Below are positions 1,959-22,069 of a stretch of 24,459 bases of DNA, piece after piece. Location of the stretch: IMG/VR virus record IMGVR_UViG_3300027971_000213, positions 1 to 24,459 of that record. One strand, 5' to 3'. Source of the stretch: a virus. The notes beneath the pieces are model-generated. The model was not told the DNA's origin. It searched no databases and was given only the letters and a program-made list of their open reading frames with translations. Both the position numbers and the translations under genes were made by a program. The number at the start of each line of letters is the position of its first letter. Within the stretch, counting starts at the first letter, position 1.

Positions 1959-3674
1959 ATGGCAAATACAGTAATTCAACTAAAATTTTCTGACGTAACG
2001 TCAGCACCAGTATCACTTAATGTTGGTGAGGCGGCGTATTCAAATACATCACAAAAATTATTCATTGGTGACACAGCAAATAATGTCCTCACCATTGGTG
2101 GTAAATTTTTCACAGACCAACAAGGTCTAATATTCACAAAAACTAACGTAGCGTTTGATACTGCCAATAGTGCGGCTTCTTATGCTAATTCGGCTTTTGC
2201 ATCTTCTAATAATAACGCTGGTGCAGCTACCGCAGGTTCATATGCTAACTCAGCATTTGCTACTGCAAATTCGGCAGGTGCTTATGCAAACTCTGGCTTT
2301 ACTGCGGCTAATACGGCAGATGCTAAAGCCGTTTCAGCTGGATCTTATGGTAACTCGGCATTTACAACTGCTAATACTGCTGATGCTAAAGCCGTTTCAG
2401 CTGGTGTATATGGTAATTCTGCATTTGCAACTGCTAATACTGCTGATGCTAAAGCCGTTTCTGCTGGTTCGTATGCCAACTCAGCATTTCTAACTGCTAA
2501 TACTCCAACTCATGTTGCAAATTCAGCTGCTAGTTATGCTAATGCAGCTTTCACATCGGCTAACTCTGCATTTACTCGTGCTAATAACAGTATCAATGCA
2601 AACACAGGCGGTACGATTACCGCTGACTTGGTTATTACTGGTAACTTAACAGTTCAAGGTAATACAACTTATGTTAATACACAAACAATCACCACACAAG
2701 ATTCATTAATTCGTCTTGCTAATAACAATACTGCTGGTGATACAGTTGATATTGGTATTTACGGTGCATATAATCCTGGTAGTGGTGTAAAGTATACTGG
2801 TCTTGTTAGACAAGCTGGTGCAAATTATTTCTTATTTCAAAATTTATCTACTGACCCAACTTCAAACGTATTAGCTCCAGGATCATTAACTGCTGCTAAC
2901 ACGGGCACATTGACTGCCAATTTAACTTCATATGCAGTTTCAATTAACGGCATTGATGTTGAAACAAATCAAACAAGAATCTTCACACAAGCAAATTCAG
3001 CATTTACAACTGCCAACTCAGCAGGTGTCTATGGTAACTCTGCATTTGCAGCTGCTAATACCGCTAGTTCAACTGGCACATCTGCTGGTGTTTATGCCAA
3101 TTCAGCATTCCTTGCAGCTAACACAGCAGACACTAAGGCCACTTCAGCTGGTGTATACGGCAACTCCGCTTTTGCAGCTGCCAATACAGCTGACGCTAAA
3201 GCAACATCGGCTGGTTCATATGCCAACTCTGCCTTCACATCTGCAAATAGTTCTGGTGTATATGCTAACTCCGCTTTCTCATCTGCTAATACTGCTGATG
3301 TTAAAGCAACATCGGCTGGTGTGTATGCTAACTCAGCATTTGCAGCTGCTAATACCGATTTCACCAACTTAACAATTACTGCTGCTCACCACGGTACTGC
3401 ATCGGCAGTTGCTTCGTTTAAAGTTGAAGCAAATGGTCGTATTAGTTCTGCAAACAATACTGCAATTGCAATTGATACCGCTGCGATTACTTCAGGTACA
3501 CTAGGTGTTGCACGAGGCGGTACTGGTGCTGGTACATTCACAAACAATGGTGTTTTGTTAGGTCAAGGTACTTCTGCATTTAGCACGGCATCATCGGCAA
3601 CAGAAGGCCATGTGTTGACAATTAATGCTTCTGGTGTTCCAACCTTCTCTCATTTACAAGGCGGAACATTCTAA
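1959..3674 (+). CDS. Repetitive fibre-like structural protein (571 aa) ending GGTF
   Basis: ATG 1959 follows GAGGA at 1944-1948 and a late box at 1912. The N-terminal domain (MANTVIQLK...NVGEAAYSNTSQKLFIGD) resembles heads of T4-like fibre proteins and is shared with the 356-aa gene at 4227. Residues about 65-205 and 345-465 are rods of 7-residue repeats of the form ANSAxxY/ANSAFxx, including 21-residue units with ADAKA. Between them lies a beta domain beginning at the junction AFTRANNSINANTGG, with GNLTVQGNTTYVNTQ and DSLIRLANNN motifs. The C-terminal domain (SGTLGVARGGTGAGTFTNNGVLLGQG) is a known type of phage fibre tail, and the protein ends GGTF. It is probably a tail fibre or other adhesion appendage; which T4 fibre it replaces cannot be told from sequence. 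Confidence 0.82.
   Translation: MANTVIQLKFSDVTSAPVSLNVGEAAYSNTSQKLFIGDTANNVLTIGGKFFTDQQGLIFTKTNVAFDTANSAASYANSAFASSNNNAGAATAGSYANSAFATANSAGAYANSGFTAANTADAKAVSAGSYGNSAFTTANTADAKAVSAGVYGNSAFATANTADAKAVSAGSYANSAFLTANTPTHVANSAASYANAAFTSANSAFTRANNSINANTGGTITADLVITGNLTVQGNTTYVNTQTITTQDSLIRLANNNTAGDTVDIGIYGAYNPGSGVKYTGLVRQAGANYFLFQNLSTDPTSNVLAPGSLTAANTGTLTANLTSYAVSINGIDVETNQTRIFTQANSAFTTANSAGVYGNSAFAAANTASSTGTSAGVYANSAFLAANTADTKATSAGVYGNSAFAAANTADAKATSAGSYANSAFTSANSSGVYANSAFSSANTADVKATSAGVYANSAFAAANTDFTNLTITAAHHGTASAVASFKVEANGRISSANNTAIAIDTAAITSGTLGVARGGTGAGTFTNNGVLLGQGTSAFSTASSATEGHVLTINASGVPTFSHLQGGTF
2316..2504 (+). repeat. Three tandem 63-bp coding repeats (21 aa each)
   Basis: Units start at 2316, 2379 and 2442 and each encodes ADAKAVSAG(S/V)Y(G/A)NSAFxTANT, i.e. 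three heptads. The DNA copies are close but not identical, with differences mainly at third positions. More diverged units of the same kind recur at about 3121-3355. Confidence 0.9.
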
Positions 3675-3699
3675 ATTATTATCGTGAAAAGGAGTTATT

Positions 3700-4227
3700 A
3701 TGAATGTGGAGTTTTCAAATGCGTATCAAGAGGTTCTGCTTGAGAATTTAGATGTAATACTTAAGCAGAACTTTATGATGCAAGCAAGATTAAAATTGCT
3801 TGAAAAAGAAGCAAATGTTCGTGCAGAAATGCAGGCAAAAATTGATGAGCTTACAGTAAAACACCAAGAAGCTTTGGAAAAAATTGGTCAAACGCAACAT
3901 TATAAAATCCAAGCGGAAAATAATGATGCGATTGTTCAAGAAAAAACCAGAATTCAATCTGCTTTAAATGATACCATGCGAGAACTTGGTACAACAAAAA
4001 GTAGTTTAGAAGTAAAAGATAGAGAGCTTGGTGAAATAAAAAACACCTTAGAAGCAAAAGAAAAAGAGATACAAGAAATGAAATCTCGTGTTCTTGAATT
4101 AGAAAAATTAGTTCCTATTGCCTCTAAAGTTGTTAAAAAACCTACTGTAAAAACTGAAGAAAAGCCTGTTGAAATTTCTGCTACTGAAACCAATAAAGTA
4201 AGGGTTGAGGCTGGCGGTACATTTTAA
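3700..4227 (+). CDS. Coiled-coil structural or assembly protein (175 aa) ending GGTF
   Basis: ATG 3700 is preceded by a strong AAAAGGAG at 3687-3694. Residues about 1-30 (MNVEFSNAYQEVLLENLDVILKQNF) form an amphipathic start; residues about 30-140 are almost pure coiled coil, rich in Glu, Lys, Gln and Leu with no Pro or Cys. A short Lys/Thr/Glu/Pro tail (KKPTVKTEEKPVE) follows, and the protein ends VEAGGTF. That C-terminus matches the ends of the two structural proteins at 1340 and 1959, although the rest of the sequence is unrelated to them. The stop overlaps the start of the next fibre gene by one base. A fibre-associated oligomerisation or chaperone role is inferred from the coiled coil and from its place between two fibre genes. 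The family is not named with confidence. Confidence 0.75.
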   Translation: MNVEFSNAYQEVLLENLDVILKQNFMMQARLKLLEKEANVRAEMQAKIDELTVKHQEALEKIGQTQHYKIQAENNDAIVQEKTRIQSALNDTMRELGTTKSSLEVKDRELGEIKNTLEAKEKEIQEMKSRVLELEKLVPIASKVVKKPTVKTEEKPVEISATETNKVRVEAGGTF

Positions 4228-5297
4228 TGGCAAATACAGTAATACAACTTAAACACTCGACATTAACTGGCAATGTTCCATCATCGCTAGCTAATGGTGA
4301 AATTTCCATCAACAGTCGTGATGGAAAGTTTTTCTATTCCACTCCCGCTGGTGTAGTCACCACTCATTATCCTTATTTGGGACCAGCAGGTCTTAATAAG
4401 GAAATTCAATTCAATGATAGTGGCACTCTTGGTGCAAATGCTGGTCTTTCATTTGACAAAACTTCCGGTTCATTAAATGTATCTACTACTCTTAATGTTA
4501 GTGGTAGAGATTTAGGTGCATATGCTAATGCGGCTTTCTTAGTTGCTAATACTCCAACTCATGTAGCGAATAGTGCCGCTAGTTATGCCAATTCATCATT
4601 TCTTGCAGCTAACACTCCAAGTAATGTGGCTAATAGTGCGGCCTCATATGCTAATGGTGCTTTCACTCGAGCAAATAACAGTATTAATGCAAATACTGGT
4701 GGAACAATAACAGGCAATTTAACAATTAGTGGCAACCTGACTATGACAGGTGCCGGAAATATATCTGTTGCAAATATTTCCATTACAAACAATTTAAGTG
4801 CAATTACAGCGGCTCTAACTGTTAACAGTATCACAACTGGTACTGGAACTGGCGGCACAATTGCAGGCGCAAATACAATATATGCAAACACCTTTGTAGC
4901 TAATACTGGTGGTTTTATTCAGTTTGCAGATGGTTCAAAACAATTTACCGCTAATGCTGGCAGTGCTGGAACAACTGATACTTTTGCAAGAGGCCAAGCT
5001 AATGCTGCCTTTATTCATGCAAATGCGGCTTTCAATCAAGCAAATACTGGCGGTGGTGGCACGACAGACTTTGGTTTTGGTATTATATACACCGCAAATA
5101 ACAATACGTTTGCTAACGCCACAACGGCCAATGCTCAAGTTAATTTTGTGGGTGAAAACGGTACTGTTGTTTATGCAAACGCTACAACTAAAACAATCAC
5201 TTTTGCTGGTACTCCAGGCCTTCAAGGATTAACCGTGGATTATGGATTTGTTAATGATCCAACTTACTATTCAATTGATTACGGATCTTTAGCTTAA
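4227..5297 (+). CDS. Fibre-like structural protein (356 aa), paralogue of the 571-aa gene
   Basis: It starts in a TAATG overlap with the coiled-coil gene. The N-terminus MANTVIQLKHS copies that of the 571-aa protein, and the first 17 bases of the two genes are identical. An N-terminal head (LANGEISINSRDGKFFYSTPAG) is followed by a short heptad rod (YANAAFLVANTPTHVANS), then the junction module GAFTRANNSINANTGG and a beta domain with repeated GNLTISGNLTM-type strands. The segment FIQFADGSKQFTANAG is typical of phage fibre proteins. The C-terminus carries a doubled DYG motif (VDYGFVND...IDYGSLA) rather than the GGTF tag. A 76-base stretch at 4519-4594 is identical to part of the 746-aa gene. 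It is probably an adhesion appendage subunit; exact location in the virion is unknown. Confidence 0.8.
   Translation: MANTVIQLKHSTLTGNVPSSLANGEISINSRDGKFFYSTPAGVVTTHYPYLGPAGLNKEIQFNDSGTLGANAGLSFDKTSGSLNVSTTLNVSGRDLGAYANAAFLVANTPTHVANSAASYANSSFLAANTPSNVANSAASYANGAFTRANNSINANTGGTITGNLTISGNLTMTGAGNISVANISITNNLSAITAALTVNSITTGTGTGGTIAGANTIYANTFVANTGGFIQFADGSKQFTANAGSAGTTDTFARGQANAAFIHANAAFNQANTGGGGTTDFGFGIIYTANNNTFANATTANAQVNFVGENGTVVYANATTKTITFAGTPGLQGLTVDYGFVNDPTYYSIDYGSLA
4519..4594 (+). repeat. 76-bp exact direct repeat, copy 1
   Basis: This stretch is identical base for base to 6872-6947 in the 746-aa fibre gene. It encodes part of the heptad rod around YANAAFLVANTPTHVANSAA. Identity at synonymous third positions points to recent copying or gene conversion. 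Confidence 0.9.
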
Positions 5298-5308
5298 TTT
5301 GGAACAAC

Positions 5309-5316
5309 TATAAATA
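5309..5316 (+). promoter_or_regulatory. T4-type late promoter box (TATAAATA)
   Basis: An exact TATAAATA sits in the 25-base gap between two fibre genes, with 6 bases between box and ATG 5323. With T4 spacing the first transcribed base would be about 5322, leaving no room for a ribosome-binding site. Confidence 0.75.
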
Positions 5317-5322
5317 ACTATT

Positions 5323-7563
5323 ATGTCAACACAAGTTCAATTTAGACGAGGTAATACAGCACAGACCAGCACATTTACAGGTGCTACTGCTGAGATTACC
5401 GTAGATACCGATAAGAAAACAATAGTTGTCCATGATGGATCGACTGCTGGTGGCTTTGCTTTAGCTAGAGAAAATTCAAGTAATACTGCTGGTTCTTATG
5501 CCAACTCTGCATATGCCACCGCTAACTCGGCACAGTCATATGCTAACTCTGCTTTTGCAACTGCTAACACTTCTGCAGCTGCTGGTTCTTATAGTAACTC
5601 TGCATTTGGTGTTGCCAATTCAGCAGCCAGTTATGCAAATAGTGGATTTGCCGTTGCTAACTCAGCATCTTTATATGCCAATTCAGCATTTTTAGCTGCA
5701 AACAATTCTGCTGGTGTAAATCTAACTCAAAACACCAACATAACAAATGCTGGTACTTACGCTAACTCCGCTTTCTTAGTTGCTAATACTCCAAGTCATG
5801 TAGCAAATTCAGCTGCATCATACGCTAATGGTGCTTTCACTAGAGCCAATAATAGTATCAATGCAAATACTGGCGGAACAATTTCTGGTAATCTTGTAAT
5901 TGCTGGTGCAAACCTTGTTGTTTCTAATGGTGCAACAGAAGTTTTTAATGTAAGAAGTTCAAGCACTTCAGGTTTACCTGCTACATCCAACTCAACTGGT
6001 ACTGTAACAATTACCGGTGGTGTTGGTGTAAAAGGTAGTATCTACGCTGATGCTGTTTATGATGGTGATATTGAAATTATAGCATATGCTAATACTGCTT
6101 TCTTAGCTGCCAATACCCCAAGTCATGTTGCCAATTCAGCGGCCAGTTATGCTAATTCTGGTTTTGCCGTATCTAACTCGGCTGCATCTTATGCTAACTC
6201 TGCATTTGCTGTAGCTAATAACGGTGTGGGTATTGATGCTACACAAAACACTAATATAACAAATGCTGGTACATATGCCAACTCAGCGTTTACAACTGCC
6301 AATACTCCAACTCATGTAGCAAATAGTGCTGCTAGTTACGCTAATTCAGGATTTGCAGTAGCTAATTCTAGCGCAAGTTACGCTAATAGTGCTTTTATAG
6401 CTGCTAACAACAGCCTTGGTATTGATTTAACACAGAATACGAATATTACAAATGCTGGTACATATGCCAATTCTGCTTACACAAGAGCAAACAATTCATT
6501 AAATGCAAATACTGGCGGTTCAATTACTGGTGATATTTCAATAACTGGTAATTTAACTGTAACTGGTAATACAACTTACACCAATACAAGAACAGTTTTA
6601 ATTGCAGATAATATTATTACAGTTAATGCCGCAATCGACCAAGCAGCACAACCAGCAGTTAATGCTGGTATTGAAGTTGACCGTGGCGCTCAACCAAATT
6701 CTTCGTTTTTATGGATTGAAACCTCTGGTAAATGGGCAGCAAATAATGGTAATGGTGCAATATTCATTGCAGCTGATTCAGCAGAATCTTATGCTAATGC
6801 AGCTTTTGCTTCTGCAAATTTAATTAATGGTGTTGATTTAACACAAAACACCAACATTACAAATGCTGGAACATATGCTAATGCGGCTTTCTTAGTTGCT
6901 AATACTCCAACTCATGTAGCGAATAGTGCCGCTAGTTATGCCAATTCTGCTTTTATAGTTGCTAACAATAGTTTAGGTATTGATACAACTCAAAATACCA
7001 ATATTACAAATGCTGGCACTTATGCTAATAGTGCTTTTGCAGCTGCCAATGCAGCTACAGCAACTGATACTACACAAAATGCTAGCATTACAGCTGCATT
7101 TACCGCAGCTAATGCTGCTTTCTTACAAGCAAATACACCAAGTAATGTAGCAAATTCTGCTGCTAGTTACGCTAACTCAGCATTTGTTTCTGCCAATTCC
7201 GCTGGTGTTTATGCAAACTCATCATTTATAACTGCCAATACGCCAAGTAATGTAGCAAACTCAGCCGCTTCTTATGCTAATTCAGGATTTACAACCGCTA
7301 ATTCTGCCGCTGCGTATGCTAACTCTGCATTTTCAGCTGCTAATTCAGCTTCAGGTGCTGCAGCTGCCGGTTCTTATGCCAATTCAGCATTTGCAACTGC
7401 TAATAATTCTGCTGGTGTAAATCTAACACAAAACACTTCTATAACATCTGCATTTGCTGCCGCTAACTCAGCAGGCATATATGCTAATAGTGCTTTTGCT
7501 CAAGCAAATAGTGGTGGAGTTACAATTGGTGATGTGTTGGCTCTCTCAATCGCACTAGGATAA
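5323..7563 (+). CDS. Large heptad-repeat fibre-like protein (746 aa)
   Basis: The N-terminus MSTQVQFRRGNTAQTSTF...VDTDKKTIVVHDGSTAGGFAL is a well-known phage fibre head domain (Mtd N-terminal-like). Most of the remainder is a rod built from heptads such as ANSAASY, ANSAFAV and ANTPTHV. Five copies of QNTNITNAGTYAN are present, plus degenerate ones. Beta islands interrupt the rod twice, each introduced by the (F/Y)TRANNS(I/L)NANTGG junction: one around VFNVRSSSTSGLPATSNSTG, the other around GNLTVTGNTTYTNTRTV, which resembles the island in the 571-aa protein. The C-terminus is short (GDVLALSIALG). A TATAAATA box lies 6 bases before the ATG and there is no usable Shine-Dalgarno, so a leaderless mRNA is possible. 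It is likely a long, thin tail fibre or similar appendage. Receptor binding is inferred, not shown. Confidence 0.82.
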   Translation: MSTQVQFRRGNTAQTSTFTGATAEITVDTDKKTIVVHDGSTAGGFALARENSSNTAGSYANSAYATANSAQSYANSAFATANTSAAAGSYSNSAFGVANSAASYANSGFAVANSASLYANSAFLAANNSAGVNLTQNTNITNAGTYANSAFLVANTPSHVANSAASYANGAFTRANNSINANTGGTISGNLVIAGANLVVSNGATEVFNVRSSSTSGLPATSNSTGTVTITGGVGVKGSIYADAVYDGDIEIIAYANTAFLAANTPSHVANSAASYANSGFAVSNSAASYANSAFAVANNGVGIDATQNTNITNAGTYANSAFTTANTPTHVANSAASYANSGFAVANSSASYANSAFIAANNSLGIDLTQNTNITNAGTYANSAYTRANNSLNANTGGSITGDISITGNLTVTGNTTYTNTRTVLIADNIITVNAAIDQAAQPAVNAGIEVDRGAQPNSSFLWIETSGKWAANNGNGAIFIAADSAESYANAAFASANLINGVDLTQNTNITNAGTYANAAFLVANTPTHVANSAASYANSAFIVANNSLGIDTTQNTNITNAGTYANSAFAAANAATATDTTQNASITAAFTAANAAFLQANTPSNVANSAASYANSAFVSANSAGVYANSSFITANTPSNVANSAASYANSGFTTANSAAAYANSAFSAANSASGAAAAGSYANSAFATANNSAGVNLTQNTSITSAFAAANSAGIYANSAFAQANSGGVTIGDVLALSIALG
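6872..6947 (+). repeat. 76-bp exact direct repeat, copy 2
   Basis: This stretch is identical to 4519-4594 in the neighbouring 356-aa fibre gene and is in the same codon phase. See copy 1. Confidence 0.9.
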
Positions 7564-10431: not shown

Positions 10432-10835
10432 AAAAATTGAACGACAACTTATCTGAAATCTTTGACATTGAACCAATGGAACAACCAGAAGTTTTGCCTG
10501 CGGTCAAACCAACCACAGAGGTAATTGCCTCCGATGAAGTGGAAACTGACGCAGCTTTAGCAAGAAAAAACATTAAAGGTTTACTAGATAAAGGTGGTGC
10601 AGCCATAGATAATCTATTGTTAGTTGCACAAGAATCTGAGCACCCACGAGCATATGAAGTTGCCGCTAATTTTATTAAAACATTAGGTGACTTGAACAAA
10701 GACTTGTTAGAGATTCAAAAACAAAAACAAAGCTTACGACCAGTTGAGATAAACAATCAATCTATTAATGTTGAAAAAGCAGTATTTGTTGGATCTACCG
10801 CAGAATTACTTAAACAAATTAGAGAGAATAAATAA
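10428..10835 (+). CDS. gp16: Small terminase subunit, T4 gp16 family
   Basis: At 135 aa it is shorter than T4 gp16 (164 aa) but fits marine relatives. An acidic N-terminal tail (about residues 1-45) leads into a helical core, ARKNIKGLLDKGGAAIDNLL, then the hallmark AQESEHPRAYEV and NKDLLEIQKQKQ. gp16 forms a ring that recognises phage DNA and regulates gp17. The ATG overlaps the gp15 stop. Unusually, the large terminase does not follow directly: a Dps-like gene lies between. The last codons overlap an AATAAATA late box that serves the downstream gene. Confidence 0.9.
   Translation: MKKLNDNLSEIFDIEPMEQPEVLPAVKPTTEVIASDEVETDAALARKNIKGLLDKGGAAIDNLLLVAQESEHPRAYEVAANFIKTLGDLNKDLLEIQKQKQSLRPVEINNQSINVEKAVFVGSTAELLKQIRENK
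10827..10834 (+). promoter_or_regulatory. T4-type late promoter box (AATAAATA)
   Basis: AATAAATA overlaps the end of gp16 and ends 5 bases before ATG 10840. The T4 spacing rule puts the first transcribed base on the A of that ATG, the same geometry as at 22131-22144. Confidence 0.6.
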
Positions 10836-10839
10836 TACC

Positions 10840-11274
10840 ATGGAACAATTAATTGAACAAATGAAAACAATTTTAGGTACAACCTTTGGGTTGTATTTTA
10901 AGGCACACTCATACCATTGGAACATTGAGGGTCCTGATTTTGCACAATACCATGATTTTTTAGGTAATTTTTACACTGGCGTTTTTGCCAATGTTGACCC
11001 AATCGCAGAACATATTCGTGCCTTAAATTCATATGCACCAGTATCATTAAGTAGAATGTTAGAACTATCTGATATTGAAGAAACAGATACCGTTCCATCA
11101 GCATTAACAATGTTGTCAAATCTAAAAAATGATAACGAAAGATATATGATGCATTTGCGTGCTGGTATTGCCGCAGCTGAAGGTGCAAATGAGCCAGCCG
11201 TTGGTAATTTTCTACAAGACATTTTAGACCAACATCAAAAACAAGGTTGGATGTTAAGAAGTTTTACAAAATAA
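10840..11274 (+). CDS. Dps-type ferritin-like protein (144 aa)
   Basis: The protein shows the full Dps ferroxidase signature: H26-W-N-x-x-G, H38, D53 and E57, with spacings 12, 15 and 4 identical to E. coli Dps H51/H63/D78/E82. The phrase HWNIEGPDFAQYHDFL is Dps-like, and the C-terminal QHQKQGWMLRSF matches the family's final helix. Dps proteins form 12-subunit shells that oxidise Fe(II) with peroxide and store iron; some bind DNA. The basic N-terminal extension used by E. coli Dps for DNA binding is absent (H26 versus H51), so iron and peroxide handling is the likelier activity. The start is ATG 10840; upstream codons in this frame lie inside gp16. It sits between small and large terminase genes with its own late box. 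Whether it acts in the infected cell or enters the virion is unknown. Confidence 0.88.
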   Translation: MEQLIEQMKTILGTTFGLYFKAHSYHWNIEGPDFAQYHDFLGNFYTGVFANVDPIAEHIRALNSYAPVSLSRMLELSDIEETDTVPSALTMLSNLKNDNERYMMHLRAGIAAAEGANEPAVGNFLQDILDQHQKQGWMLRSFTK

Positions 11275-15538: not shown

Positions 15539-17197
15539 ATGGCTGTAACTCTTTTTGGCTTTACACTAGGTAAAAAGGATATTGTTCAGGTTGAGAAACC
15601 TGAGCAAGCTTCTTTTTCGCTTCCAACCGAGACCATTGATGATGGTGCGGTTACTATTACTCAAAATGCTCACTATGGTACATATGTTGACCTAGAGGGT
15701 TCTATTCGTAATGAGTTAGAGTTAATTACTCGTTATCGTGAAATGTCTAACCATCCAGAATGTGATATGGCAATTGATGAGATTGTCAATGAAGCTATTA
15801 CACATGATACAGATGGCAAGGTTATGGATATCAATTTAGATAATCTAAAACAACCTGAATCAATTAAGAAAAAGATTATTGAAGAATTTAATAACATTCA
15901 AAAAATGTTAAACTTCAGTAATCTTGCCGATGACCTGTTCAAACGTTGGTATATTGATGGTCGTATTTACTATCATGTAATTGTAAATGATACCGCACCA
16001 AAAGAAGGTATTCAAGAGCTTCGTTATATTGACCCACGCAAGATTCGTAAGGTGCGTGAGATTCAAAAAGACCGTGATTCAAAAACTGGTGCTCAGATTA
16101 TTAAATCAATTGCTGAGTATTATATTTACAATGACCGTGGTGCGGCAACACAATCATTTACAGCATCTACAAACCAAGGTCTAAGAATTGCGCCTGAGTC
16201 CATTATTAATGTAAACTCTGGTTTGATGGATGCAAAGAATACATTTGTAATTTCATATTTACATAAAGCAATTAAAGCTCTCAATCAATTACGCATGATT
16301 GAAGATGCTGTTGTAATCTATCGTTTGTCACGAGCACCTGAGCGCCGTATATTTTATATTGATGTTGGTAATTTACCAAAAGGTAAAGCCGAACAATATA
16401 TGCGTTCTATTATGACACAGTATCGCAACAAGTTAGTATATGATGCTAACACAGGTGAAATTCGTGATGAGCGTAAACATTTATCTATGTTAGAAGATTT
16501 TTGGTTACCACGCCGTGAAGGCGGTAAAGGTACTGAGATTACTACACTTCCTGCTGGTCAAAACCTTGGCCAAATGGAAGATGTTCAGTATTTTCAAAAG
16601 AAGTTATTGCAATCGTTGAATGTTCCAATTTCTCGCCTTGACCCACAACAAGGTGCAGGCATTATGGGTATTGGTAAAACAACTGAAGTAACTCGTGATG
16701 AAGTTAAATTTAATAAATTTATTAATCGTTTGCGTAATAAATTTTCTCGTATTTTTGATGATGCTTTGCGTGTTCAATTAGCACTCAAAGGAATTTGTAC
16801 CACAGAAGAATGGGACGAATTTAAAGAAGCCATCTATTACGACTATAAGAAAGATAATAACTTTGTTGAAATGCGTGAAGCAGAATTGATTCGTGAGCGT
16901 GTATTAACAGCAACACAGTTAGACCCATTTATTGGTAAGTATTACTCTAGTAAGTGGGTTAAGAAAAATGTGCTTCGTATGACAGATGAAGATATTGAAG
17001 AAATGGAGAAAGAAATTGAAGAAGAAAGCAGCCAACCCGTTCTTGCTGATGGCGAAGAAACCTCAGCCCAAGCAACCAACGCAGACGCAACAAGTCAAGC
17101 CGAGGACAACACTCAGGAAAGCAGCGGCACGGAGTCGTTAACTCCTCAGTTGGATGATGCGGTAAATAAGTATGCTTTTAATATAAATAGGAAATAA
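15539..17197 (+). CDS. gp20: Portal vertex protein, T4 gp20 family
   Basis: gp20 forms the 12-subunit portal that starts prohead assembly and serves as the DNA channel. Family signatures include YREMSNHPECDMAIDEIVNE, FKRWYIDGRIYYHVIVND, LRYIDPRKIRKVREI, then RLSRAPERRIFYIDVGNLPK, DFWLPRREGGKGTEI and SRLDPQQGAGIMGIGKTTEV. The C-terminal about 60 residues are acidic and Ser/Thr/Gln-rich, as in marine relatives. The start ATG has AGGA at 15526-15529. No late box lies between the terminator at 15496 and this gene, so expression seems to depend on read-through. The stop overlaps an out-of-use ATG at 17197; the next gene's late box lies inside the last codons of gp20. Confidence 0.96.
   Translation: MAVTLFGFTLGKKDIVQVEKPEQASFSLPTETIDDGAVTITQNAHYGTYVDLEGSIRNELELITRYREMSNHPECDMAIDEIVNEAITHDTDGKVMDINLDNLKQPESIKKKIIEEFNNIQKMLNFSNLADDLFKRWYIDGRIYYHVIVNDTAPKEGIQELRYIDPRKIRKVREIQKDRDSKTGAQIIKSIAEYYIYNDRGAATQSFTASTNQGLRIAPESIINVNSGLMDAKNTFVISYLHKAIKALNQLRMIEDAVVIYRLSRAPERRIFYIDVGNLPKGKAEQYMRSIMTQYRNKLVYDANTGEIRDERKHLSMLEDFWLPRREGGKGTEITTLPAGQNLGQMEDVQYFQKKLLQSLNVPISRLDPQQGAGIMGIGKTTEVTRDEVKFNKFINRLRNKFSRIFDDALRVQLALKGICTTEEWDEFKEAIYYDYKKDNNFVEMREAELIRERVLTATQLDPFIGKYYSSKWVKKNVLRMTDEDIEEMEKEIEEESSQPVLADGEETSAQATNADATSQAEDNTQESSGTESLTPQLDDAVNKYAFNINRK
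17182..17189 (+). promoter_or_regulatory. T4-type late promoter box (TATAAATA)
   Basis: An exact TATAAATA lies inside the last codons of gp20. The predicted transcription start is near 17195, about 14 bases before the preferred ATG of the gp67-like gene at 17209; GGAG at 17199-17202 lies in that leader. Confidence 0.75.
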
Positions 17198-17208
17198 TGG
17201 AGAATACT

Positions 17209-17406
17209 ATGACAACAGAAACATTTATTAATCAGTTAGCTTCTGGACAAGCTGCTGATGCAAAAGAAACATTAGCAGATTTATTGTCTGCTCGTGCCTT
17301 TGAAGCATTAGATGCCCGTAAGCAAGAAATCTCAACAGCATTATTTGGTGGTCAACAAGAAGTTGAAGTGCAAGATACTGCGGACACACCAATAGAACAA
17401 GAATGA
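17209..17406 (+). CDS. gp67: Prohead core protein, T4 gp67-like (65 aa)
   Basis: The position directly after gp20 and the short helical pattern match T4 gp67, a core protein needed for correct head shape and degraded by gp21. Residues about 6-42 (FINQLASGQAADAKETLADL, then ARAFEALDARKQEIS) align without gaps to the central part of T4 gp67; the tail is acidic (EVEVQDTADTPIEQE), as in T4. I chose ATG 17209 because GGAG sits 6 bases upstream. An in-frame ATG at 17197 would add four residues (MENT) and has no ribosome-binding site; however it lies only 7 bases behind the late box and cannot be excluded as a leaderless start. The gene ends in an ATGA overlap with the next gene. Confidence 0.8.
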   Translation: MTTETFINQLASGQAADAKETLADLLSARAFEALDARKQEISTALFGGQQEVEVQDTADTPIEQE

Positions 17407-18194
17407 AGTCATTAGAAGATTTTAAAAACATTCTATTAGAAGAAGAAAAATCAGACTATTCAAAGTTTGATATGTTGGTTCGTGCTGGTCTTGCCAATAA
17501 GGCACAGATACAGCGTATTCACAAAATCTTAGATAAGATGGGTGAAGAAAAACCAAACTTTAGTCCTGCTGATAGAATGATTGTTCAAAATCTATTCAAT
17601 AAAATGGTAGATTTGATTAGCAATAATAAACAAATTTTTCAACAAACTCGCCGAGCAGTAAGAGAAGATATTGTTGATACTTCTGATTATAAGATTGATA
17701 AAACTGGTCGAAAGTATAAAGCTCACCGAATTAAACTTGGTGATACTACACCAGCAGTAGCAGACGGAACAGTTGAATTAGCAAAAGAAGAAGTGGTGCA
17801 GTTAACAGAAGCACAAGACCCTCCTTTTGTATTGGTATTAAAACGTAAAGCAATTCGTTTATATCCTGATGGTACTAAAATTGCTTTGTATCATAATGAC
17901 CGATTGGATAAAGATTTTGCTGTACCTTATTCAACATCTTCTCAACCTGTTATTCAGGCTGAAGCAGCTGATGCAATGGGTCAACTACAAAAGATTAAAG
18001 ATAGTCATAGTCATGGCACAGTAAACCATAAAGATGGTTCTGCCAGTAAGGTTGATGTTCAAACTGCTCATGCCGTATTAATGGTACATAAGAGTTTGAA
18101 TGATGAAAATAAAACCAAGTTTGCTGACATGGTAGCAAGGTCATCACACCATATGCAAAAAGCAGCCAACTTTGCTATTAGTAAAATGAAATGA
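17403..18194 (+). CDS. Uncharacterised head-cluster protein (263 aa)
   Basis: I do not recognise a named T4 homologue. The N-terminal half is helical and charged (MKSLEDFKNILLEEEKSDYS; MLVRAGLANKAQIQRIHKIL; FSPADRMIVQNLFNKMVDLI). A linker with VVQLTE then AQDPP follows; LTE|A at residues 134-137 fits the gp21 cleavage rule and would release a C-terminal piece of 127 residues. That piece starts with a beta stretch (FVLVLKRKAIRLYPDGTKIA) and ends with a helical domain (KVDVQTAHAVLMVHKSLNDE) of a type I associate with T4-like head-region proteins from memory. It overlaps the genes on both sides by 4 bases (ATGA), so the cluster is translationally coupled. A prohead core or minor capsid role is inferred from location only. 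Confidence 0.65.
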   Translation: MKSLEDFKNILLEEEKSDYSKFDMLVRAGLANKAQIQRIHKILDKMGEEKPNFSPADRMIVQNLFNKMVDLISNNKQIFQQTRRAVREDIVDTSDYKIDKTGRKYKAHRIKLGDTTPAVADGTVELAKEEVVQLTEAQDPPFVLVLKRKAIRLYPDGTKIALYHNDRLDKDFAVPYSTSSQPVIQAEAADAMGQLQKIKDSHSHGTVNHKDGSASKVDVQTAHAVLMVHKSLNDENKTKFADMVARSSHHMQKAANFAISKMK

Positions 18195-18631
18195 GCTTTG
18201 TTGACCTTATTGGAAAAAACAAACTTATTGAGGCCAAAGAATTTTTATTCAATCGCCTTGATGAGATAGCTGCTAATTATTTGGCAGAAGAAAGAGAAAT
18301 TATAGGTAGAAATACTTATGTTGAAGTAGAAGAACAATTAGATGAAGCTTCAACGAATGTAATTAAAATGGGTCGAGTCAAAAAGATTCGCCGCCGTATT
18401 CGTAGAAATGCACAAGGCAGAATTATTGTTCAAAAGAACATAAGAAAATCTGCAATAAAAGGATTTAGAATATCAGGTAATACAGTTAAAAGAATACCTG
18501 CTATTGAAAGAATACAAAAAGCAAGAAAACTAAAAAGGTACTGGAAGACAAAAGGTAAAGCAAAATTGCGTAGAACATTACTTAAAAGAAAAATGTCTAT
18601 CAGACGCCGCACATCCATGGGAATAAAATAA
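18191..18631 (+). CDS. Core protein with gp67-like N-domain and protamine-like tail (146 aa)
   Basis: Residues 3-38 (FVDLIGKNKLIEAKEFLFNR...) align without gaps to the gp67-like protein of this window, sharing F, AKE, several Leu and Ala positions. A predicted gp21 site LDE|A lies at residues 50-53. The remainder is extremely basic: from residue 56 on, 36 of 91 residues are Lys or Arg and only one is acidic (segments KKIRRRIRR, KARKLKRYWK, LRRTLLKRKMSIRRR). This suggests an N-terminal part that targets the scaffold core and a C-terminal part that stays inside the head and binds DNA after cleavage. It takes the position of T4 gp68. It starts in an ATGA overlap with the previous gene. The DNA-binding role is inference from charge. 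Confidence 0.75.
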   Translation: MSFVDLIGKNKLIEAKEFLFNRLDEIAANYLAEEREIIGRNTYVEVEEQLDEASTNVIKMGRVKKIRRRIRRNAQGRIIVQKNIRKSAIKGFRISGNTVKRIPAIERIQKARKLKRYWKTKGKAKLRRTLLKRKMSIRRRTSMGIK

Positions 18632-18632
18632 A

Positions 18633-18983
18633 ATGCCAATAGAAATTTCAAATACATTAAGGTCAGATTCGATTGTTCGTGTTGAGGGCACTGGTACTTA
18701 CTATGCTAATCTTATTTCTTTAGCAGCTAATAGTAATGAAGTTGTTAGTGCTGCTGACATCAAACGGATTAACTGGTCAACAAACGGTAACATTACTATT
18801 GTTCGCAATGGCAATGTAATTGGTACATTCCACAATGCAGGTGAAATTAGATTTGATGAGTGGGCATATTCAATTGCCAATAACAACACATCTAACGTAG
18901 TCATTACAGTTACAACTGGCGGAACATTATTTTTAGAATTAAATAAAACTGCTGCTTACACAACACCATTAACAGGAATGTAA
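18633..18983 (+). CDS. Small beta-rich head-region protein (116 aa)
   Basis: It starts one base after the previous stop and ends one base before gp21, so it belongs to the same operon. The sequence alternates hydrophobic and polar residues with many Asn, Thr, Gly and Val (NGNITIVRNGNVIGTFHNAG; NVVITVTTGGTLFLELN), which suggests a small all-beta sandwich. No Cys and no (L/I)xE site followed by A/G near the N-terminus, so it may not be cleaved in maturation. Possible roles are head decoration or a minor capsid component. I do not recognise the family with certainty. Confidence 0.6.
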   Translation: MPIEISNTLRSDSIVRVEGTGTYYANLISLAANSNEVVSAADIKRINWSTNGNITIVRNGNVIGTFHNAGEIRFDEWAYSIANNNTSNVVITVTTGGTLFLELNKTAAYTTPLTGM

Positions 18984-18984
18984 T

Positions 18985-19635
18985 ATGAAGCTTATTACAG
19001 AAAGAATAGAACAAGTTCAGTATATTACTGAAGCTAGTGAAAATGGCAAAAAGAATCTGTATATTACCGGTCCTTTTTTAGTTTACGACAAACCAAATAA
19101 AAACAACCGACTTTATACCAAAGATACATTGTCTAAAGAAGTTGGTCGTTACAATGAGGAGTTTGTCAAAACGAATCGTGCCTTAGGTGAATTAGGTCAT
19201 CCTGATACCCCATCTATTAACTTAGAGCGTGTATCACATAAGATTGTTTCACTTGAGGACAATGGTGAGGCATTCATTGGTAAAGCGATGATTTTAGAAA
19301 CACCCTACGGTCAGATTGTTAAAAACTTTATTGATTCCGGTGTTAACCTTGGAGTATCTTCTCGTGGCATGGGTTCACTCACGCAAACAAAAGAGGGTTA
19401 CAACTTGGTTCAAGATGATTTCAAATTGGCAACGGCAGCTGATATCGTAGCAGATCCATCTGCTCCAGGTGCATTTGTTAATGGAATTATGGAAAACAAA
19501 GAGTGGTTATTTGTTGATGGTCGTTTCGTAGAGGCCGACATTGATTCAGCAAAAAGACAGATTAGACAAGCATCACGCAAAGACATAGAACAGGTTGCCT
19601 TAACCTTGTTTGAAAACTTTATCCGAAAACTTTAA
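18985..19635 (+). CDS. gp21: Prohead maturation protease, T4 gp21 family
   Basis: gp21 is the serine protease that cleaves the prohead core, scaffold and capsid protein at (L/I)xE sites. The 216-aa protein (T4: 212) has the catalytic His in ALGELGHPD (H72) and the catalytic Ser in GVNLGVSSRGMGS (S125 or S126). LYTKDTLSKEV and FVNGIMENKEWLFVDGRF are family features. An ITE|A site at residues 14-17 may be the autocleavage point for activation. AGGA lies 7 bases before the start. The gene is followed by a late box for gp22. Confidence 0.93.
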   Translation: MKLITERIEQVQYITEASENGKKNLYITGPFLVYDKPNKNNRLYTKDTLSKEVGRYNEEFVKTNRALGELGHPDTPSINLERVSHKIVSLEDNGEAFIGKAMILETPYGQIVKNFIDSGVNLGVSSRGMGSLTQTKEGYNLVQDDFKLATAADIVADPSAPGAFVNGIMENKEWLFVDGRFVEADIDSAKRQIRQASRKDIEQVALTLFENFIRKL

Positions 19636-19668: not shown

Positions 19669-20700
19669 ATGGCATCAAACAAATTATTTGAGGCAGCCGC
19701 AGAAATTCTTGCACAAAGCAAGGGTGCTGCACCAGCTATGCCTACACAAAAACTAGATGGTGAAACTGTCGATTTAGGTGGCCCAACACCTCAAGACAGC
19801 AAGCCAACTGACGATTCTAATAAAATCGACACAACAAAAAGCGCTAAGTCTGCAACTGCTCCAACAACGAAGCCATCTGCAGCTTCTGCCAAAATGGAAG
19901 AAACAGAGTCCGAAGAAGAAATCATTGCTGAAAAAATGCATGATGACGAAAAGAAAGAAATGATGAAGAAGAAAATGAAAGAGGACATTGATGCCCTTTT
20001 TGCTGACGATTCTACCATTTCTGAAGAATTCAAATCTAAAGTTTCTACAATTTTTGAAGCTCGTGTCCAAGACCGTGTTGCACAAATTGAAGAAGAAACT
20101 GAAGAGCGTTATGCTGGTATGCTTGAAGAGGCAGTTGAATCTATCAAGCAAGATTTGACAGAGAAAGTTGATGACTATCTATCTTACATTGTTGAGCAAT
20201 GGATGGAAGAAAATCAAATCGCTATTGAATCTGGTCTCCGTTCCGAAATGACCGAAGATTTTATTGCCGGTTTACGCAACCTATTTGCTGAGCACTATAT
20301 TGATGTGCCTGCAGAAAAAGTCGACCTCGTTGATGAGTTGGCTGGTAAAGTTGAAGAACTTGAAACCAAACTCAATGAAGAAATCGAGCGTGGAGTTAGC
20401 TTTGCTAAAGCATTAGTTGAATCCCGCAAAAAAGAAATTGCTGGTGAAGTATGTGAAGGTCTCATTGCAACTCAAGTTGAAAAAATTAAATCACTCGCAG
20501 AGAGTGTTGAATTCTCCACAGAGGACGAATACAAAGAGAAACTTGAAACCATTCGTGAGAACTATTTTCCATCTGGCATTAAAAAAGCTAGTGAATCACA
20601 ACTTCAAGAAGAAGTAACTGATGGCTCAGAGAAGCAAGTCGTTTCTAACGACCCTTATGTTGCCGCAGTTGCAAACGCAATTTCTAAAACTAAAATTTAA
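19669..20700 (+). CDS. gp22: Prohead scaffold core protein, T4 gp22 family
   Basis: gp22 is the main internal scaffold around which the capsid forms; it is destroyed by gp21. The 343-aa protein (T4: 269) lies between gp21 and gp23 as expected. An N-terminal LFE|A (residues 6-9) is a likely cleavage site. Residues about 20-75 are low-complexity (Thr, Ser, Ala, Pro), and about 75-105 are alternating Glu and Lys. The remainder is long helical and acidic (FEARVQDRVAQIEEETEERY; YLSYIVEQWMEENQIAIESG; RNLFAEHYIDVPAEK), typical of the family. A C-terminal peptide (SNDPYVAAVANAISKTKI) resembles the conserved gp22 end that contacts the shell. Confidence 0.9.
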   Translation: MASNKLFEAAAEILAQSKGAAPAMPTQKLDGETVDLGGPTPQDSKPTDDSNKIDTTKSAKSATAPTTKPSAASAKMEETESEEEIIAEKMHDDEKKEMMKKKMKEDIDALFADDSTISEEFKSKVSTIFEARVQDRVAQIEEETEERYAGMLEEAVESIKQDLTEKVDDYLSYIVEQWMEENQIAIESGLRSEMTEDFIAGLRNLFAEHYIDVPAEKVDLVDELAGKVEELETKLNEEIERGVSFAKALVESRKKEIAGEVCEGLIATQVEKIKSLAESVEFSTEDEYKEKLETIRENYFPSGIKKASESQLQEEVTDGSEKQVVSNDPYVAAVANAISKTKI

Positions 20701-20722: not shown

Positions 20723-22069
20723 ATGTATTTGTCCGAACAATTACAAAAGAAATGGGAAGGCGTTCTGGATCATCCAGATATGCCAGCTATTAAAGACCCA
20801 TATCGTAAAGCAGTAACAGCCGTTGTTCTTGAAAATCAAGTTCAAGAAATGGCTAAATCTGGTAGCATCCTTCAAGAAGCTGGTCCCCCAACAAACTTTG
20901 CTGGTACAGGCGGTTTCGGTGGTAGTGCAGCTGCTGGCGGCCCTGTTGCCGGTTTTGATCCAATCTTAATCAGTTTGGTTCGCCGTTCGTTGCCTAACCT
21001 CATCGCTTATGATATTTGCGGTGTTCAACCAATGACTGGTCCTACTGGCTTAATTTTTGCTATGCGTACCAAGTATGCATCACAAGGTGGTACAGAGGCA
21101 TTCTTCAACGAAGCCAACACAGGTTTCGCTGGTGCAAACGGTGGTGGCGCTCAAATCGCCCTTACTGTTCCTACTGATACTGCTGCTAACAACACATTTG
21201 CTGGTAACGCTGCTGCAATCGCTGCTATGACCACAGGTAGTGCTGAAGCTTTAGGTGATGGCGCATCTGGTAATACATTCCAAGAAATGGCATTCTCTAT
21301 TGAGAAAGTTACTGTAACTGCAAAGACTCGTGCTTTGAAGGCAGAATACTCATTAGAACTTGCTCAAGACTTGAAAGCAGTTCATGGTTTAGATGCAGAA
21401 ACAGAATTAGCAAACATTCTCTCAACAGAGATTCTTGCTGAAATCAATCGTGAAGTTATCCGCACAATCTATGGTGTTGCTAAGTTAGGTGCTCAAGTAG
21501 GTACAACTACTCCTGGTACATTTAACCTTGACACAGATTCCAACGGTCGCTGGATGGTTGAGAAGATTAAAGGTTTGGCATTCCAAATCGAGCGTGAAGC
21601 TAATACAATTGCCAAGACAACTCGCCGTGGCAAAGGTAATGTTTTAATCTGCTCTTCTGACGTTGCATCTGCATTTGCAATGGCAGGTTTGTTAGATTAT
21701 AACTCTGCTTTACAATCGCAAGTTAACCTCACAGTTGACGATACAGGTAACACATTTGCTGGTACAATGTTTGGTCGTATCAAGGTTTACATCGACCCAT
21801 ATTTTGCCACAAGTTCTACCAATGAGTTTGCTGTTGTTGGTTACAAAGGTACAAACGCCTATGACGCTGGTATTTTCTACTGCCCATACGTTCCATTGCA
21901 AATGGTTCGTGCAGTTGATACTGGCACCTTCCAGCCAAAGATTGGTTTCAAGACCCGTTACGGTCTCGTTGCCAACCCATTTGCAGAAGGTACATCACAA
22001 GGCCTTGGCGCATTGACTGTTCAATCCAACAACTACTACCGTGGTTTCAGGATTTCCAACTTGATGTAA
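20723..22069 (+). CDS. gp23: Major capsid protein, T4 gp23 family
   Basis: The 448-aa HK97-fold capsid protein is shorter than T4 gp23 (521) and close to marine relatives. A predicted gp21 site LQE|A at residues 50-53 would remove a 52-residue propeptide. The mature start AGPPTNFAGTGGF, then DPILISLVRRSLPNLIAYD and CGVQPMTGPTGLIFAMR, is a strong gp23 signature. Later motifs include EMAFSIEKVTVTAKTRALKA, YSLELAQDLKAVHGLDAE, then RGKGNVLICSSDVASA and KTRYGLVANPFAEG. ATG 20723 has AAGGAG at 20710-20715. No gp24 vertex gene follows, as in many cyanophage-like T4 relatives. A strong terminator closes the unit. Confidence 0.97.
   Translation: MYLSEQLQKKWEGVLDHPDMPAIKDPYRKAVTAVVLENQVQEMAKSGSILQEAGPPTNFAGTGGFGGSAAAGGPVAGFDPILISLVRRSLPNLIAYDICGVQPMTGPTGLIFAMRTKYASQGGTEAFFNEANTGFAGANGGGAQIALTVPTDTAANNTFAGNAAAIAAMTTGSAEALGDGASGNTFQEMAFSIEKVTVTAKTRALKAEYSLELAQDLKAVHGLDAETELANILSTEILAEINREVIRTIYGVAKLGAQVGTTTPGTFNLDTDSNGRWMVEKIKGLAFQIEREANTIAKTTRRGKGNVLICSSDVASAFAMAGLLDYNSALQSQVNLTVDDTGNTFAGTMFGRIKVYIDPYFATSSTNEFAVVGYKGTNAYDAGIFYCPYVPLQMVRAVDTGTFQPKIGFKTRYGLVANPFAEGTSQGLGALTVQSNNYYRGFRISNLM

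Follow-up and report, generated by a model that had tools for sequence, protein, structure and literature searches.

The closest described counterparts of the protein analysed here are the prohead core proteins gp67 and gp68 of bacteriophage T4. The T4 prohead core contains about 240 copies of gp68 (PMC9958956; PMC9026906, Table 1), and the review passages available to us conflict over its cleavage and over what is left of it. In Table 1 of PMC9026906, gp68 has 0 copies in mature heads and the entry “cleaved: no”, two other review texts have gp68 cut into small peptides or short fragments, and the running text of PMC9026906 has several fragments arising by cleavage of gp67 and of “gp6” (perhaps a slip for gp68). 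The need for gp68 is also reported differently, as essential in Table 1 of PMC9026906 and as not essential in the passage from PMC9958956. For gp67, the same table records 139 copies of a 3.9-kDa fragment in mature T4 heads. Mutations in T4 gp67/68 turn the prolate head isometric, according to a passage in PMC2984593. Mass spectrometry of virions has detected a prohead core protein, which gene order suggests to be gp68, in Kuttervirus (two retrieved) and in Morganella phage MP1 (one peptide); in the available parts of these reports, scaffold was seen in the same samples, so neither sample shows retention of gp68.

A second precedent is provided by the T4 internal proteins (IPs), which carry an N-terminal targeting sequence for prohead entry that is removed by the head protease (excerpt of PMC7697877). 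According to the sections of PMC9026906 at hand, the internal proteins of T4 are basic and bound DNA at low salt, the prohead protease gp21 follows the cleavage rule L/I-X-E, and T4 gp22 is cut at a Glu-Ala bond.

Here, we analysed a window of 24,459 nucleotides (IMG/VR record IMGVR_UViG_3300027971_000213), in which a 146-aa protein encoded in the head gene block very likely joins a gp67-type front to a basic back, probably that of gp68. An earlier note on this DNA had read the protein as a delivery device, whose gp67-like domain would bring a protamine-like tail into the scaffold core before gp21 cuts the tail free. The clade to which the window belongs separates the question on which the T4 reviews disagree, as its protein combines a scaffold module that can be recognised as such, a cut site of canonical appearance and just one conserved basic domain.

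Gene layout and distribution of the 146-aa protein

The window contains the head block of a T4-superfamily myovirus, with the tail tube and gp20 through gp23. On the + strand, the gp20 portal protein (15539–17197), which served as synteny anchor, is followed by a 69-aa gp67-like protein with an acidic disordered C-tail (P0002, 17197–17406), a 263-aa protein of unassigned function (17403–18194), the 146-aa ORF (P0001, 18191–18631), a 116-aa gene, the gp21 prohead protease (Peptidase_S77, 18985–19635), the gp22 scaffold (19669–20700) and the gp23 major capsid protein (20723–22069). The 263-aa gene overlaps both of its neighbours by 4 bases, the overlap with the 146-aa ORF reading ATGA. Like gp68, the 146-aa ORF lies between gp67 and gp21, here with one extra gene on each side, and its translation, its relatives and a composite HMM mark it as a putative gp68-type prohead core protein with a gp67-like N-domain. 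Among the matches listed, the nearest isolates were cyanophages by gp20 (about 48–53%) and cyanophages, Pelagibacter phage HTVC008M and Methylophilales phages by gp23 (59–68%).

Several other genes of the window deserve mention. Counterparts of the 263-aa gene, of roughly 220–316 aa, lie between gp67 and gp68 in relatives; its product includes VQLTE|AQ, a sequence of the gp21-site type, and the C-terminal third shows a weak likeness to a protein encoded elsewhere in Methylophilales phage Melnitz (E 0.1). The 116-aa ORF in the gap between gp68 and gp21 (18633–18983) has a relative in 76 of the 80 listed loci, and family searches with it gave no convincing match. Directly before the terminase, a ferritin-like protein (10768–11274; PF00210, E 2.5e-19; PHROG “DNA binding protein”) is possibly Dps-like, and the large ORFs at 1959–7563, rich in ANSAASYANSAF-type repeats, perhaps encode fibre-like low-complexity proteins.

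Homologues of the 146-aa protein were identified in 252 of 266 loci, which comprise the best 80 loci of each scan and include repeats of one contig and loci cut by contig ends; these gave 135 unique proteins, hereafter the listed relatives. The sequences in all counts reported here are related, and the counts do not represent independent events. Across IMG/VR contigs, at least 528 confirmed relatives were found in one scan and at least 541 in another. This version of gp68 is common in IMG/VR contigs of uncultivated T4-like phages. Two BLAST queries against 50,697 phage records, run with a low-complexity filter that may mask part of the basic tail, returned no isolate relative.

The N-terminal domain is homologous to gp67

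Residues 1–46 (18191–18328, +) form a net acidic domain with helices predicted at residues 3–8 and 12–42. The earlier note had aligned this region without gaps to the gp67-like protein encoded upstream, and residues 2–38 do align ungapped, with 9 of 37 positions identical. At the pairwise level, this likeness is near chance, as 73 of 2000 shuffles reached its score, and BLASTP between the two proteins returned nothing at E 100. T4 gp67 aligned with the 146-aa protein better than the neighbouring gp67 did (14 of 49 identical; 0/2000 shuffles reached the score). When unique relatives were scored one by one against an HMM of the sister gp67 domain, 18 of 57 exceeded the top score among 1140 shuffles; the 146-aa protein encoded in the window did not. 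The shuffle result for the neighbouring gp67 and the failure of the window's own protein on the sister-domain HMM are what would be expected if the ORF were misread, or if both the N-domain match and the protease-type site described below were coincidences in a helical acidic stretch.

Profile comparisons refuted such a coincidence. When the N-domain was compared with the sister gp67 family, hhalign gave 93.8% and E 1.8e-7 over 45 ungapped columns. With larger alignments, the comparison with the sister domain rose to 95.2% (E 2.8e-8), and that with seven T4-type gp67 proteins gave 93.9% (E 1.6e-7); none of 200 column-shuffled controls matched either. As a single sequence, residues 3–53 matched the T4 gp67 PHROG (PHROG 1064) at E 0.0017, compared with 0.071 for the 69-aa neighbour, and this PHROG matched 15 of the 30 family members scanned. 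In a six-frame scan of six relatives (64–162 kb), run at a loose limit of E 10 at which three of fourteen control genomes also matched, the same PHROG had seven matches, spread over five of the records; four of them fell in gp67 genes and the other three in gp68 genes, with no match in any other place, and the gp68 gene was unmatched in three of the six relatives. Together with the 135 unique listed homologues, these results make a chance likeness or a misread ORF highly improbable. The homology of the N-domain to gp67 is thus settled by the profile comparisons, despite the weak pairwise score.

The predicted structures agree with this assignment. In the AlphaFold model of the 69-aa gp67, helices span residues 7–16 and 19–50, and their positions relative to those of the 146-aa protein are consistent with an alignment offset of seven. 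A spread of the gp67 domain over many genes per genome was considered and rejected, as matches in the six relatives, some of them partial records, fell in gp67 and gp68 genes only; a further query, A2, found one place in each of the six.

The basic tail is a conserved module probably shared with gp68

Downstream of the candidate cut, residues 53–146 (18347–18628, +) contain 36 Lys/Arg among 94 residues, with a net charge of +35, a pI of 12.0 and a mass of about 11 kDa. The figure of 36 Lys/Arg in 91 residues given earlier is correct for residues 56–146, and the single acidic residue it allowed for is E106. Among the 135 listed relatives, the tail has no acidic residue in 120 and contains [LI]xE in one.

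Protamines are unstructured chains in which charge, not sequence, is conserved. The tail of the 146-aa protein differs on both counts, and its description as protamine-like was not borne out. Among 81 relatives, 28 columns were invariant in residues 59–146 versus 2 in residues 1–58, the mean pairwise identity was 0.78 in the tail compared with 0.48 in the N-domain, and fixation as Lys or as Arg at 95% was seen in 22 of 29 basic tail columns. The tail is the most conserved part of the protein. AlphaFold predicted strands within a beta region at residues 62–101 (block pLDDT 65–78) and a helix at residues 104–143 (block pLDDT 92–97), in a model with a pTM of just 0.42. On the basis of conservation and predicted fold, we rejected a protamine-like, disordered tail. 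Conservation this strict at individual residues would fit a specific protein partner no less than DNA.

Several comparisons connect the tail to gp68 with moderate strength. In the family HMM of the 146-aa protein, columns 2–54 matched isolate gp67 proteins, columns 85–145 matched gp68 of phages Kuja and pf16, and columns 24–146 matched gp68 of Stenotrophomonas phage YB07. None of 50 shuffles of each gp68 sequence reached its score, and the pf16 match, at 8.6 bits, was just below the best of all 2200 shuffled decoys (9.0); T4 gp68 itself was unmatched by this HMM. Compared by hhalign with 14 aligned gp68 tails, the tail gave 60.9% and E 8.2e-5, with 0/200 controls; against eight T4-type tails and six others separately, it gave 33.9% and 29.9%, each above all 100 shuffles. 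Furthermore, phrog_33445 matched 10 of the 30 family members (best E 0.0011) and also T4 gp68 (0.0015), and phrog_3503 weakly matched four of the 30 (best E 0.73).

By fold, the 609 viral proteins that Foldseek listed at E up to 10 were headed by a prohead core protein from Vibrio phage Kuja (A0A6B9JC36; probability 0.96, E 0.044, TM-score 0.28 by query). In Kuja, the gene lies near that of the portal and bears the annotation of a head scaffolding protein; a search with gp68 of a Kuttervirus also retrieved it, at E 0.05. No viral structure model matched the 146-aa model at E 0.001, and solved structures gave no match by sequence at E 1 or by fold at E 0.001 or better. Taken together, the profile and model comparisons make homology between the tail and the basic module at the C-terminus of gp68 probable. 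The earlier note had placed the protein in the position of T4 gp68; the position within the gp20–gp23 block agrees with this, and what changes is that the tail itself would be the gp68 module.

The module is joined to quite different front parts in isolates. With cut points between front and module chosen by eye, the gp68 front comprises 62–85 residues in eight T4-type phages, about 160 in Stenotrophomonas and Variovorax phages, 16–20 in three Ackermannviridae and 8 in pf16. These sequences suggest that gp68 generally consists of a variable front joined to a constant basic back. In the Stenotrophomonas (L138, 772–1503) and Variovorax (L141, about 682–1437) phages, a single ORF of about 243–250 aa lies between portal and protease and fuses a long acidic front to the gp68 basic module.

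A candidate gp21 site lies in a predicted disordered linker

Residues 47–58 (18329–18364, +) are the only stretch of the model with pLDDT <50 and are predicted to form a disordered linker. This linker contains L50-D51-E52|A53 (18338–18349, +; scissile bond after base 18346), exactly as noted earlier, and thereby the L/I-x-E that precedes the cut in gp21 substrates. In the listed relatives, with P1 defined as the final Glu ahead of the tail, P3 was Leu or Ile in 130/135 and P1′ was Ala in 125/135; of the five proteins with another residue at P3, two have LDE shifted by one residue towards the N-terminus and the remaining three have Phe. At E52 itself, counted in 81 relatives, the values were 80/81 and 76/81. 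Among 728 other Glu residues in the N-parts of these 81 proteins, 254 had Leu or Ile at P3 and 97 had Leu or Ile together with Ala. As Leu/Ile at P3 is this common, the motif alone proves little. The N-domain carries further conserved [LI]xE sites, for example LIEA at residues 12–15, and the abundance of [LI]xE in this domain led us to abandon a simple argument from chance for LDE|A.

Sites of the same form are found in the head proteins encoded nearby. The window encodes ITE|A in the N-terminal part of gp21, LFE|A near the N-terminus of gp22 and a propeptide-type LQE|A in gp23, and among unique proteins of these phages, [LI]xE[AGS] occurred in the expected stretches of gp21 in 35/50, gp22 in 45/45 and gp23 in 21/30. 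For isolate gp68 proteins, [LI]xE directly precedes the module, again cut by eye, in 12/14, and just 2 of the 14 have Ala following the candidate Glu, so the site may be unused in those isolates.

If the protein were not cut at all, LDEA would be a conserved structural feature of the linker in a bifunctional core protein. The abundance of [LI]xE elsewhere in the N-domain and the tabulated absence of T4 gp68 cleavage would both accommodate this. It is harder to reconcile with residues at P3 and P1′ that are held nearly constant in a predicted disordered linker of variable length, and with the [LI]xE motifs at 22 of 24 junctions in the listed gp67 cargo fusions described below. We consider an uncut protein quite unlikely. 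Cleavage by gp21 at E52 is, on the strength of motif, model and conservation, the likely course of events.

The sister gp67 gene carries variable cargos in some relatives

In relatives, the gp67 gene is usually short and ends in an acidic tail. The C-tail of such short proteins comprises about 18 residues, and that of the 69-aa protein has a net charge of −6 over residues 51–69. Extended versions were counted by length (13/74) and then by the residues after the domain (17/94, later 24/134) in successive sets of unique listed proteins. Within 45 residues after the gp67 domain, [LI]xE was present in 22/24 extended proteins versus 2/110 short ones. When the junctions of the first 13 extended proteins were shuffled, a mean of 8.2 retained a site, and all 13 never did so.

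The extensions of the listed proteins fall into 11 sequence clusters, the largest containing 8 of 22, and are net basic in 21/22. The clusters are mutually unrelated by BLASTP at E 1e-3, which indicates that the junction motif accompanies several different cargos. Examples of extended gp67-like genes with mostly basic, unrelated cargos are found at L023 768–1253, L044 2668–3048, L048 2885–3274, L052 1263–1670, L112 2743–3291, L128 1608–2048, L171 2501–3157 and L212 2501–3085. In L171 and L212, the extension seems to consist of two consecutive cargos with a second junction, which reads ELDE. A search of eight relatives for further copies of the cargo motif LSKxT gave no match and, lacking a positive control, was uninformative. 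In the titles and abstracts searched, with most subscription papers out of reach, we found no description of a gp67–gp68 chimera or of gp67 cargo fusions.

Among isolates, gp67-like ORFs follow the portal gene in two cyanophages, in HTVC008M and in Melnitz (L083 7623–7940; L229 3134–3388; L226 1964–2170; L227 2757–2942), all four matching the clade gp67 HMM, and the gp67-like ORF of P-RSM1 matches phrog_683. The two cyanophage ORFs contrast with a passage in a 2010 review, according to which gp67 is missing from all cyanophage genomes (PMC2984593).

Discussion

We propose the following route for the 146-aa protein. The gp67-like helical domain, whose homology is established, would dock the protein in the scaffold core as gp67 does. 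gp21 would then cut after E52 in the disordered linker, as motif, linker and conservation suggest, and might also cut the N-domain at its own [LI]xE sites. The basic module, poor in Glu and free of [LI]xE, would survive digestion and be freed in the prohead. In the last and least certain step, it would meet the incoming genome and stay bound to DNA as a folded domain, not as a protamine. In some relatives, the neighbouring gp67 gene would use the same layout for other, swappable cargos.

Delivery is favoured by a tail without gp21 sites or acidic residues, by the Ala after the site and by the cargo-bearing gp67 genes. What has become of the delivery-device model is that the gp67-like domain and the protease-type site stand, and that a modular carrier gains from the basic gp67 cargos found behind such sites; the protamine-like character of the tail does not stand.

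The T4 fate table and the strict conservation of the tail instead favour a structural partner. The basic module (+35) could pair with the acidic gp67 tail (−6) and with gp22, shape the core and then be cut off and expelled, and the gp67-like domain would help the protein to co-assemble with gp67, giving matched acidic and basic tails. This would accord with the fall of T4 gp68 from 240 copies in the prohead to 0 in the mature head in that table and with the isometric heads of T4 gp67/68 mutants, and the conservation of the tail fits a fixed protein partner. Nevertheless, a tail free of [LI]xE in 134/135 listed relatives would have to exit as an intact module of about 11 kDa, the short gp67 C-tail offers about 18 residues only, and the cargo-bearing gp67 genes resemble delivery more than scaffolding. 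We therefore regard this core-assembly role as rather unlikely, though the most serious competitor among those weighed here.

Retention of the tail on DNA has, in our estimation, about an even chance. As a whole, the best explanation is a gp68-type core protein with a gp67-type front that is cleaved and leaves its basic module on DNA, a composite to which we likewise give roughly equal chances of being right or wrong. More tentatively, the gp67 domain may be a general capsid-targeting carrier in this clade, bearing a fixed basic domain that organises DNA on gp68 and swappable, unrelated and mostly basic cargos, at times two in tandem, on gp67, each freed by gp21 at [LI]xE junctions; we lean slightly against this extension. 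If true, it would represent protease-processed delivery of internal, possibly ejected, head proteins that is independent of the T4 capsid targeting sequence (CTS). The differing gp67 cargos suggest that a range of proteins is delivered to the head in a common phage group that has no isolate in the records searched.

Comparison with described systems locates the protein between several of them. With T4 IPI–IPIII, as described in the passages available, it would share an N-terminal targeting piece of the kind that gp21 removes and a basic passenger brought into the head. It differs in its carrier, a gp67 domain of about 46 residues rather than a CTS of about 10, and in its passenger, which is conserved whereas that of the IPs is variable. 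With T4 gp67 (PHROG 1064), which is annotated as a precursor to internal peptides, it shares the domain at residues 2–46; the acidic C-terminal tail of gp67 is absent, and a conserved basic domain takes its place. The Kuja prohead core protein is only 90 aa long, and a Kuja gene product of equal length is matched by the tail part of the family HMM; it has no gp67 domain, which is encoded instead by the gene just upstream.

The nearest counterpart is T4 gp68 (PHROG 1049; also 14114 and 3503). Its gene likewise precedes gp21, its length is similar (141 aa versus 146 aa) and its basic C-terminal module ends in a similar KRR/RRR...G-[IL] motif; [LI]xE just ahead of the module is a feature that the 146-aa protein shares with most of the isolate gp68 proteins examined. 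Unlike the 146-aa protein, T4 gp68 has another N-terminal module, of 67 aa, in the place of the gp67-like domain. In the window phage, an extra gene separates gp67 from gp68, unlike in T4, and Ala after the site is the rule in the listed relatives of its protein (125/135) but the exception in the isolates (2/14). “gp67–gp68 chimera”, with a front from the one and a back probably from the other, describes the 146-aa protein better than “gp67 with a protamine tail”.
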